Below, piece by piece: positions 15,997-18,944 of a stretch of DNA of 56,831 nucleotides; position 1 is the first letter of the stretch; every line of letters begins with the position of its first letter. Origin of the DNA: an archaeon (GTDB lineage: Archaea > Thermoproteota > Nitrososphaeria > Nitrososphaerales > Nitrosopumilaceae). The notes beneath the pieces were generated by a model. It was not told the origin of the DNA. It made no database searches and saw nothing but the letters and a program-made list of their open reading frames with translations. Made by a program: the position numbers and the translations under genes. Location of the stretch: assembly GCA_024276695.1 (NCBI GenBank), contig JAJRWR010000041.1, positions 1 through 56,831 on the forward strand, read 5' to 3'.

Positions 15997-16004
15997 ATTT
16001 TTAA
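15997..16004. repeat. 8-bp target-site duplication, left
   Basis: ATTTTTAA directly precedes the element end GGCTCTGT and recurs as ATTTTTAA directly after the other end (18937-18944). Eight bases is the duplication length of IS6-family insertion. Confidence 0.8.
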
Positions 16005-16171
16005 GGCTCTGTAAAGTCAACAAGGCTTTGACTTGTAATTTTCTTTTGTCAAATTCGAGACCTAAATACAAACGATCAGTATCAATAAGAAAATACGAAA
16101 ATCATAAAAAGAACACAAATTATGATAAAATTGTGCCTTGATCTGCCAAAATATATCGATACAGAACAAGG

Positions 16172-16866
16172 TTGGGAATGGATGTTATCCAACCAAGATT
16201 ACAAAATATGGAAATTACCCGTACTGAGGACATTCACATTCATGAACCAAATGGAAATTCGATAAGTGGAGATATGGTTCTCGTAGAATTAAATGGTGAG
16301 AGACGTTTTTTTGGCTTCGTAATTGATTTAGATAACAGAATAATAATCCTTTATGGAACTTCCAAATTTAGATCGTTAGTTTTACGAAATATAGTATCGA
16401 CAATACAAGATAATCATAGAGATTGGGAAAATTTTATTGAAACTGAAGAAAATGGCTTTAGTATATCAAATGAACAAATTTTTACTCTAATAGATAGATT
16501 AAGAGCAGAACATGAGGATAACACTGTAGTTAAGTTACTCTTAACTTCGGATGAAGCACACCCATCATAATTCAACATGGAACACAAGAAGGTCAAGGTT
16601 TACCATACTATGAATTAGATTTTAGACTAGTCAATGATTCCGCAGAACAACACCCATTAAGAAAAACATTTGAACAATCAGCACGTTCTATCGGATTCAT
16701 TATTGAATTAAAACAATGTAGAGGATTAAGGAATGTTGAAGAAAGAACCCCTATTAAAGTACACATCAATCCAGACTTTTCATTCTGGTTACACAAAGAC
16801 TCAGCAATTAATGAATGGACTGATTTTATCTACGGGTTCTGCATGGATTTCATAAATGGACGATAA
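16172..16866 (+). pseudogene. Unknown IS passenger gene, one frameshift
   Basis: The first frame (from ATG 16172, or 16178) reads MEITRTEDIHIHEPNGNSI and ends at a TAA at 16568-16570. The next frame is open from there to TAA at 16864-16866 and continues with IIIQHGTQEGQGLPYYELDF and DFSFWLHKDSAINEWTDFIY. Both halves look like real protein and join near 16555, which indicates one indel. Restored product about 230 residues, soluble, no motif I recognise. It lies inside the IS6-like element. Confidence 0.6.
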
Positions 16867-16878
16867 GGAAACTTCATA

Positions 16879-17402
16879 ATGTTTGATGCGGTATATAGAA
16901 TGATGGCAGACATATTTTCATCAATTTCAACTCAATTTGCAGATTCGTATCTTTCTATTATCGTTAGTTCCGTAATTGGGGGTCTTATAGCATGTTATAT
17001 TTACAAAGTAAATGAAAATAAAAAACAAAAAAGTGATAAAATGAATTGGAATGCAATTAATGAATATTGTAAAAAAGCACAAAAAATCTATAATACAATA
17101 TACAGTTACTCGGACAAATCCCTGAAAACGAAGAAGATCAATTAAGAAAAATAAATTCATTTTTGGAAAGGGATTCGGAAAAATTGAGGCGAATCCACGA
17201 TACCATTTTTAATTATAGTTTACAACTTCATAAAAAAACAGAAAAAGACAAACGTAAGATAGAAGATATTTTATTGCATATTGATTGGTTGTCAAATGAT
17301 TATTTCAGAGCGTCTTTGGATAAGGAAGCACGTAAAACATACTTTGTAGATTATAGAGATGAATTATCATCCCGAAGAAAGGAAATCTCTGAATTAGCAT
17401 AA
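16879..17402 (+). pseudogene. Membrane-anchored coiled-coil protein, one frameshift
   Basis: The first frame begins MFDAVYRMMADIFSS and has one membrane helix (SYLSIIVSSVIGGLIACYIY) followed by charged helix; it stops at 17143-17145. The second frame overlaps from about 17100 and reads QLLGQIPENEEDQLRKINSF then SEKLRRIHDTIFNYSLQLHK to TAA at 17400-17402. Joined near 17100, the two make one ~170-residue protein with a membrane anchor and a cytoplasmic coiled coil. Function unknown; 12 bp after the preceding gene, probably cotranscribed. Confidence 0.6.
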
Positions 17403-17416
17403 TACCCAAAATAGTT

Positions 17417-17599
17417 TCAAGTATTATGACTATCTGCTTTGATTTCAACCGTATTTTTTCCTTTCAGGACAAATTTTACAAAATTTGGATCTCCTAACGC
17501 TTCCATGATAGGTTTAGGAATAGAACTTTGATATCCTCGATTTTCATTAAAATTAACACTAACAGTAAATTCTTTAGCATCTTTTTTCCACTTAGGCAA
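17417..17599 (-). CDS. SpoVT/AbrB-like DNA-binding protein
   Basis: 60 residues from a TTG start (an in-frame TGA lies two codons upstream). EFTVSVNFNENRGYQSSIPK followed by PIMEALG and FVKFVLKGKNTVEIKA has the beta-alpha-beta swapped-hairpin pattern of AbrB/MazE-type regulators (strand, IPKPIxEALG, strand). It is divergent from the transposase, and an array of TACGTA-centred palindromes lies between them, so it may repress both. An antitoxin role is possible but no toxin partner is visible. Confidence 0.65.
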   Translation of the reverse strand: MPKWKKDAKEFTVSVNFNENRGYQSSIPKPIMEALGDPNFVKFVLKGKNTVEIKADSHNT

Positions 17600-17614
17600 T
17601 AATCAAAATCGTCA

Positions 17615-17689
17615 TATCTACGTATTAAAGGTATCTACGTAGTTAAGTAAAGTTAATATATCTACGTAGATATTGTATATACGTAGATA
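17615..17689. promoter_or_regulatory. Operator-like TACGTA palindrome array
   Basis: Four sites in 75 bp: TATCTACGTA at 17615-17624 and 17632-17641, a perfect 16-bp palindrome ATATCTACGTAGATAT at 17658-17673, and TATACGTAGATA at 17678-17689, the last running into the transposase ATG. They occupy the whole spacer between the AbrB-like gene and the transposase. A dimeric or tetrameric repressor site is the simplest reading. Confidence 0.6.
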
Positions 17690-18810
17690 TGACTAACCGT
17701 GAAACAAAAGCACAAAAAATAATTGAAAAAAATAACCAAATTAAACAAATAGATAATCATACTTTCCAAGTAAAATCACAATCATCAGACAAATGGTATG
17801 ATGTTATATCTACTGAATCAGGATTCATTTGTTCCTGTCCTTACTCAACATTCAGAAAAACAAATTGTAAGCATTCAATCTCAGTTGAGATTAATCAAGG
17901 AATTAGAAAATACATTGAAGATGTAAAACAGAAACAAGTAATCATCAATCCAGTAGAGATTAACGGTTGCAAGTTCTGTGAATCTAATCACATCATAAAG
18001 AAAGGATTGAGAAAAAACAAAAATTATTCAATCCAAACTTTTCAATGCAAAGACTGTAAACGAAAGTTCTCAATCAATATTGGATTTGAGAAGATGAGAG
18101 TCACACCACAAGCAATTACAGCAAGTATGAATCTCTACTTTAACGGGGAATCATTACGCCATGTTGTCGATTTCATGAAACTCTTTGGCGTAGAAGTGAC
18201 ACACCAAACTATCCATAACTGGATCAAAAAATACATTGGATTAATGGAGACTTATCTTGAATCCATAACCCCTCAAGTTTCAGACAAATGGTACTGTGAT
18301 GAGATTTTCTTGAAAATCAAAGGAGATAGAAAATATCTCTATGCCATGCTTGATGATTCCTCAAGATTTTGGATTGCCTCACAAGTGGCAAAAACAAAGT
18401 ATACCGAAGATGTAAGACCATTATTCAAAAACAGTCAAGTCAGAGCAGGTAAGAAACCCAAAGTCTTACTTTCAGATGGGGCTAAGAATTTCATGCAAGC
18501 CCATAAGAAAGAATGGTATTCAAATTACAAAAAAGACAAGGTAGAACATATCAGACATATTCACTTCAAAGGTGACAAAAATACGAACAAAATGGAACGT
18601 CTCAACAATGAGATAAGAGACCGTGAGAAAGTAATGCGTTCTCTAAAAACCGATGATTCGCCTATTCTTACAGGTATGCAGATTTTCCACAATTATGTTA
18701 GACCTCACATGGGTATTGATGGAATGACTCCAAGTGAGAAAGCAGGAATCAAAATTGAGGGATTAAACAAATGGATTACAATTATTCAAAATGCGAAATT
18801 AAACCAATAA
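17689..18810 (+). CDS. IS6-family-like DDE transposase
   Basis: 373 residues. N-terminal SWIM zinc finger (C48, C50, C60, H62 in CSCPYSTFRKTNCKH), then a zinc ribbon (C94, C97, C120, C123), then a DDE core: D204 in WYCDEIFLKIKG, D263 in VLLSDGAKNF and E303 in NKMERLNNEIRDREK. The motif spacing and the HNYVRPHMGIDGMTPSEKAG tail fit the IS6 superfamily. The gene looks complete. Its ATG overlaps the last operator-like site. The terminal repeats and 8-bp duplication fit IS6-type transposition. Confidence 0.85.
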   Translation: MTNRETKAQKIIEKNNQIKQIDNHTFQVKSQSSDKWYDVISTESGFICSCPYSTFRKTNCKHSISVEINQGIRKYIEDVKQKQVIINPVEINGCKFCESNHIIKKGLRKNKNYSIQTFQCKDCKRKFSINIGFEKMRVTPQAITASMNLYFNGESLRHVVDFMKLFGVEVTHQTIHNWIKKYIGLMETYLESITPQVSDKWYCDEIFLKIKGDRKYLYAMLDDSSRFWIASQVAKTKYTEDVRPLFKNSQVRAGKKPKVLLSDGAKNFMQAHKKEWYSNYKKDKVEHIRHIHFKGDKNTNKMERLNNEIRDREKVMRSLKTDDSPILTGMQIFHNYVRPHMGIDGMTPSEKAGIKIEGLNKWITIIQNAKLNQ

Positions 18811-18906
18811 TTTTTTTGTTATACAATCAGGACATAGAATTACTCCTTGTTCGTTATCTGTAAGTTGTAACATGGTATCTGTATATTCATCGATCTCATT
18901 TTTCAC
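18799..18906 (-). CDS. 35-residue CPDC mini-protein in the IS
   Basis: GTG start; reads MKNEIDEYTDTMLQL and ends with VILCPDCITKKLLV. The CPDC pair could bind a metal with a partner. It is convergent with the transposase and overlaps its 3' end by 12 bases. It fills the right arm of the element. May be a remnant of a longer zinc-ribbon protein. Confidence 0.35.
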   Translation of the reverse strand: MKNEIDEYTDTMLQLTDNEQGVILCPDCITKKLLV

Positions 18907-18936
18907 ATAATTTACCCAAGCTAACTTGACAGAACC

Positions 18937-18944
18937 ATTTTTAA
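18937..18944. repeat. 8-bp target-site duplication, right
   Basis: ATTTTTAA, matching 15997-16004; it also forms the upstream half of the TATA box of the next gene. Confidence 0.8.

Follow-up and report, generated by a model that had tools for sequence, protein, structure and literature searches.

The 56.8-kb window, by which we mean the whole stretch of archaeal DNA analysed here (56,831 nucleotides), carries a transposase gene (17689-18810, plus strand; 373 amino acids) and, divergent to it, a gene for a small AbrB-like putative DNA-binding protein of 60 amino acids with a TTG start (17417-17599, minus strand). The spacer between the two genes is filled by four TATCTACGTA-type sites, which are candidate operators and are given here on the plus strand. 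Site 1 (17615-17624, TATCTACGTA) overlaps a TATA-like box of the small gene (17623-17629; TTTAATA on the minus strand, approximately 24-30 bases before the TTG start). It is followed by site 2 (17632-17645, TATCTACGTAGTTA), by a TATA-like box of the transposase gene (17653-17659, plus strand; TTAATAT, beginning at -36), by site 3 (17658-17673), which is the perfect 16-bp palindrome ATATCTACGTAGATAT, and by site 4 (17676-17689, TATATACGTAGATA), whose last base is the A of the transposase ATG. The sites thus bracket the TATA-like boxes of both divergent genes, each box being predicted from consensus only. The original prediction of four such sites between an AbrB-like gene and a transposase, running into the transposase start codon, was borne out, while its emphasis on palindromes holds fully for site 3, the other three being one or more bases off. 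The interval first given, 17415-17691, includes the AbrB-like gene, at whose end it starts; the array proper is 17615-17689.

The array is real and dedicated. With up to one mismatch, TATCTACGTA is matched 9 times in the 56.8-kb window, where 1.49 matches would be expected; none of 100 shuffles reached 9, and seven of the nine matches fall at 17615-17689. Four of the seven TACGTA words in the window belong to the array (at 17619, 17636, 17663 and 17680), and all three exact copies of the 11-mer TATCTACGTAG in the 1.56-Mb genome are found there. A repeated-word test of the spacer found 4 copies compared with 1.7 in dinucleotide shuffles (p ~0.01, the lowest value obtainable from this test).

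The small protein is probably AbrB-like, an assignment made with good but not final confidence from its predicted fold and from its homologues, which are encoded beside other transposases. The window protein has no Pfam match, including to PF04014 MazE_antitoxin, and no NCBIfam match, and a sequence search of its class against solved structures returned nothing relevant. An AlphaFold2 model built from 12 homologues (pLDDT 82.3) has a predicted beta-beta-alpha-beta-beta order. The best Foldseek match of this model was MazE, at a weak level (probability 0.84, E 0.62), and in a second structure comparison all 18 rows were MazE, Abh, SpoVT, AbrB, VapB, C68 and like proteins, with Z scores of 2.5-4.5.

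The transposase matches PF13610 (DDE_Tnp_IS240) at 3.1e-10 and 40.8 bits, above the cut-off of 27, and has an N-terminal SWIM-like zinc motif (PF04434 SWIM, 0.0074, below cut-off). Among all models, the curated IS6 model NF033587 scored best (104.1 bits, 8e-30), but below its cut-off of 125, and we therefore call the transposase IS6-like, a divergent relative. An 8-bp target duplication is typical of the IS6 family. The window element shares with the IS6/IS26 family its DDE domain type, GG-tipped, TGT-containing inverted repeats of 15-20 bp and a target duplication of this length. It differs in size, approximately 2.9 kb rather than a short single-gene element, and in having the SWIM-like motif, a control gene and further open frames. 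In its excerpted text, a 2021 review of the IS6 family names one member with a passenger gene, ISDsp3 (PMC7986276).

We located the ends of the element by comparing the PEFG-CTERM locus between genomes. The whole IS6-like transposon spans 2932 bp (16005-18936, plus strand), has GGYTCTGT ends and is flanked by exact copies of the 8-bp target duplication ATTTTTAA (15997-16004 and 18937-18944). Its left terminal inverted repeat, GGCTCTGTAAAGTCAACAAGG (16005-16025, plus strand), pairs with the right repeat, GGTTCTGTCAAGTTAGCTTGG (18916-18936, read on the minus strand), at 15 of 21 positions. L159 and L162 provide empty sites, in which the same PEFG2-PEFG3 spacer has a single copy of the duplicated sequence and neither insert nor small gene. 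Three extra open frames lie inside the element on the plus strand (16172-16570, 16879-17145 and 17163-17402; span 16172-17402) and have no Pfam match above cut-off. An inverted-repeat search close to the small gene, within 480-700 bp to the left and up to 400 bp to the right, gave no excess; the true ends are farther out. A profile search with the transposase 3' end yielded one inverted remnant, in L028, where the 3' end of another transposase lies approximately 300 bp to the left of the locus's own transposase.

Ends of the GGYTCTGT type with an 8-bp duplication were found in 32 of 103 full-length relatives, the duplication being exact in 31 of the 32, whereas shuffled right flanks gave a mean of 0.6 and at most 2 such end pairs. 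The window's element was tested directly and is not counted in the 32, since its locus copy, L001, does not extend far enough to the left. Three relatives at the PEFG locus have terminal repeats with GA instead of GG tips. Since the ends and the target duplication enclose the small gene and the array, both lie inside the transposon. This bears on a reading in which the small gene and its array are host DNA and the element starts at the transposase, inserting beside host operator arrays. Such a boundary could account for the finding that elements with different small-gene classes resemble each other in DNA from the transposase start onward, and for the solo AbrB-like genes with arrays and no transposase in L062 and L063. 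Nevertheless, the mapped ends already contradict it: the small gene is enclosed by the inverted repeats and target duplications in the window and in the 32 relatives, and it is missing from the empty sites. We regard this reading as almost certainly wrong.

We also considered vertical descent of the window transposase at the PEFG locus, with its neighbours diverging alike. This was rejected because position and orientation vary among genomes and because a separate target duplication accompanies every mapped insert. Four related elements (the window's and those of L159, L160 and L162) share the insertion target NTTTTTAA in promoters of PEFG-CTERM genes, the individual targets being ATTTTTAA for both the window and L159, TTTTTTAA for L160 and CTTTTTAA for L162, in different genes of the PEFG-CTERM cluster. 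Judging from these sequences, the elements appear to prefer a PEFG-CTERM promoter motif as target. The L159 element carries a tRNA-Ile (TAT) gene (L159 6842-6926) between the transposase and the right end. In the window, a short minus-strand frame with a CPDC motif (18811-18936) reaches the right end of the element, and by eye a similar frame lies downstream of the transposase in L029. C-terminal transposase fragments are common in the window's own genome (L004-L009) and in many relatives, N-terminal pieces being rarer; this excess could reflect decay or better detectability.

The transposase is present in 22 of 61 genomes at E<=0.001 and in 66 of 250 family genomes at E<=1e-40, the window's own genome being counted in each case. 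For comparisons between elements we used relatives chosen by hand as near full-length matches, with fragments and degenerate copies left out before counting; L066 and L152 are the same element, counted twice in sets of 103 and once in sets of 102. Of the 103 full-length elements, 90 have a divergent small gene, assignable to one of ten classes, and 13 have no assigned small gene. The class labels were coined in this analysis, and small-gene clusters 9-17 were dropped as spurious. The largest class is RHH1 (24 elements), followed by the window's class, AbrBA (19), zinc-ribbon (10), RHH2 and YLYY (8 each), SpoVT (6), MKLQ and RHH3 (5 each), AbrBC (3) and MazE (2). The MKLQ, SpoVT and MazE classes match PF04014 MazE_antitoxin above cut-off, and Pfam weakly supports zinc-ribbon and ribbon-helix-helix assignments for other classes. 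A model of RHH1 (pLDDT 91.6) matched CopG, NikR and AvtR with a probability of at most 0.97 and E values of 0.15 or worse. Some class-unassigned copies also carry arrays, with other motifs such as CGTTATCGGTAACG in L052 and TTATGGTACCATAA in L087, and in L032, L051, L054 and L154 the small gene is farther off, with no clear array. In L116 and L117 a tRNA-like sequence, noticed by eye, occupies the position upstream of the transposase that the repressor cassette has in other elements; ARAGORN found no tRNA at either locus.

Arrays are a recurrent feature of these spacers. A repeated-word array (p<0.05) was detected in 46 of 102 spacers and in 1 of 99 control stretches; the 56 spacers that fail do so under a strict test, which misses arrays with looser repeats. 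The expectation that the array would be kept in related elements also held, in that elements with the same small-gene class have the same kind of array in the same places, whereas related elements of another class carry a different one. The AbrB-like class alone uses operator cores of TACGTA, CACGTG, CGTACG or CTTAAG. Judged by shared spacer 8-mers, operator words vary with the small-gene class and not with the transposase. In every bin of transposase identity, pairs of one class have more 8-mers in common than pairs of different classes: 2.18 (206 pairs) versus 0.65 (1475 pairs) below 40%, 2.34 versus 0.58 at 40-50%, 2.73 versus 0.55 at 50-60%, 5.29 versus 0.83 at 60-70%, and 7.05 (63 pairs) versus 0.91 (76 pairs) above 70%. 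Within RHH3 alone, sharing was not higher (0.5 versus 0.66), and numbers for AbrBC and MazE are tiny.

Transposases and spacers also part company in individual pairs. The three transposase pairs that lie closest together in the tree (L144/L147, L090/L100 and L067/L123; 91.6-92.1% protein identity) each combine different small-gene classes, and in near-identical transposases with different classes DNA similarity starts approximately 20 bases before the matched transposase start. Conversely, L001 and L104 have spacers that are 91.7% identical and transposases that are 48.5% identical, and the corresponding values for L067 and L056 are 90% and 44%. Across 90 labelled tips the tree requires 51 class changes, compared with 58.5 for shuffled labels (smallest 52), and class is therefore weakly tied to descent. 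As operators track class and transposases are mismatched with spacers, repressor and operators move as an exchangeable cassette; at the level of sequence comparison, exchange between elements is shown.

These data also speak to whether the array might be a recombination or transposase-binding site, such as subterminal repeats or a res-like site for cointegrate resolution, instead of an operator. Its location inside the transposon, adjoining the transposase start, would suit such a role, and the excerpted text of a Tn3 review places the res site between divergent genes in some elements (PMC7157771). Yet the motif tracks the small-gene class, nearly identical transposases have different motifs, the real ends lie elsewhere, at 16005 and 18936, and the small proteins look like AbrB or ribbon-helix-helix proteins, not recombinases, in their predicted folds. 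We consider a recombination or transposase-binding site highly unlikely and favour an operator array.

The positions of the sites are consistent with control of transcription. In the window the core centres lie at -67.5, -50.5, -23.5 and -6.5 from the transposase start, and those of L104 are within one base of these (outermost at -68.5), with TTAATAT at -36 in both; L055 lacks the outermost site. CACGTG-type arrays are found at about -46 and -17, ACGTACGT-type arrays at about -45 and -17, and GGTACC-type arrays (four of the five MKLQ elements) at -38.5 and -14.5, on either side of a TTTATAT at about -29. L056 carries an array of the ACGTACGT type and L049 one of the GGTACC type. Given these positions, proteins of unrelated classes would converge on one arrangement, with sites on both sides of the TATA box. 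Sites so placed can keep out TBP and TFB in archaea. At their own and neighbouring promoters, F55 and C68 bind over the BRE or the start (PMC5569661).

Because of the site positions and this precedent, we propose a model of autorepression and transposase silencing. The AbrB-like protein, probably as a dimer, would bind the TATCTACGTAGATA sites bracketing the two divergent TATA boxes and block TBP and TFB at both promoters, thereby limiting its own amount and, in an established host, preventing expression of the transposase. In a copy that enters a host without the AbrB-like protein, the transposase would escape repression for a short time. The cassette passed between elements consists of the repressor gene together with its operators, and in relatives unrelated small proteins (AbrB-like, ribbon-helix-helix, zinc-ribbon and others) would act through their own operators in the same place. 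The self-repression circuit originally predicted to silence transposition is thus supported, with binding and repression inferred from sequence. Overall, we put at about 0.8 the probability that the array serves as operator for an autoregulated switch encoded by an IS6-like archaeal transposon and belongs to an exchangeable cassette.

Two other readings keep the small protein as a regulator and change what it does. It may be an activator of the transposase or a two-way switch; the viral factor AvtR of archaea both activates and represses, depending on concentration (PMC5569661). The sites, however, lie on or directly beside the TATA-like box and the start codon, where a bound protein should block, and we find an activating role improbable. 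Alternatively, the small gene may be an antitoxin remnant whose array is its own autoregulatory operator, the transposase being affected by accident. AbrB/MazE and ribbon-helix-helix proteins are common as antitoxins, three of the classes match the MazE_antitoxin family, and Tn3 elements may carry AbrB- or RHH-type antitoxins together with toxins, according to the excerpted review (PMC7157771). By contrast, antitoxin models give no match above cut-off for the zinc-ribbon and YLYY classes, several unrelated classes have their sites at the TATA box and start of the transposase gene, and an unsystematic look revealed no common partner gene and, in the window, no toxin recognisable by name. An antitoxin remnant is therefore an unlikely explanation, and repression of the transposase by a dedicated protein is the reading we retain.

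The cassette also occurs outside this transposon family. L062 and L063 each have an AbrB-like gene, with CCACGTGG sites, that is divergent to another gene of approximately 240 amino acids instead of a transposase, and L062 also encodes, by eye, an apparent tyrosine recombinase end. L171, a contig from the IMG/VR virus collection, has an AbrB-like gene, a TACGTA array and a remnant of a GGTTCTGT end, with no transposase match on the contig. It is on balance probable that these IS6-like transposons control their transposase through a "socket" that takes at least ten small-protein classes of several unrelated folds, each with its own operators, and that cassettes pass between transposons, an integrase-bearing element and a virus-like contig as a shared pool of plug-in immunity modules in ammonia-oxidising archaea. 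Heteroimmunity, in which copies within one genome avoid the same class, was unsupported by class sharing or by operator likeness. When elements were assigned to genomes by hand from the locus list, 7 of the 50 pairs within one genome had a class in common, compared with 7.3 under the null (P 0.56). The operators of these seven pairs are no less alike than is usual, in a comparison that one similar pair in L144 dominates.

The usual description of an insertion sequence comprises a transposase and its ends. The modular, exchangeable cassette is the larger finding here, beyond a single repressor circuit. One family appears to have repeatedly gained dedicated repressors and operators, of unrelated folds, in the same place around the promoter. 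These elements represent a natural library of repressors with predicted cognate operators, applicable to archaeal promoters, as well as a system for studying repressor-operator co-evolution and a way to ask whether phage-like immunity benefits transposons. In a 2019 survey of thaumarchaeal mobile elements, a single brief section is given to insertion sequences, and that section mentions no such switch; the word AbrB is absent from the survey's text (PMC6563490). Literature searches of open-access journal papers, judged mostly by title and the opening of the abstract, returned no exchangeable repressor-operator cassettes in an insertion-sequence family and, within the same limits, no papers linking transposase, AbrB and Nitrosopumilus.

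Among the closest known systems are C68 of pSSVx, which is AbrB-like, and F55 of SSV1, a ribbon-helix-helix protein, both described as small proteins acting at repeated sites in their own and a neighbouring promoter (PMC5569661). Those proteins, however, serve viruses or plasmid-virus hybrids and not a transposase, and their recognition motifs differ; the modelled window protein resembles C68 only as a distant fold match. The tnpR/res region of Tn3 elements likewise has a regulator divergent from the transposase and several sites in the shared spacer, according to the review (PMC7157771); in our case binding is predicted. Unlike TnpR, which is a resolvase, the 60-amino-acid protein is predicted to be AbrB-like and not a recombinase, and the fold of the regulator seems to differ from element to element. 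In the immunity regions of temperate phages, a repressor gene and its cognate operators are exchanged as one module. The cassettes described here are similar, in that a module appears to be swapped between otherwise similar elements and the operators match their own repressor class. They differ in belonging to a DDE transposon of archaea, in which same-class exclusion between copies was tested and not seen.
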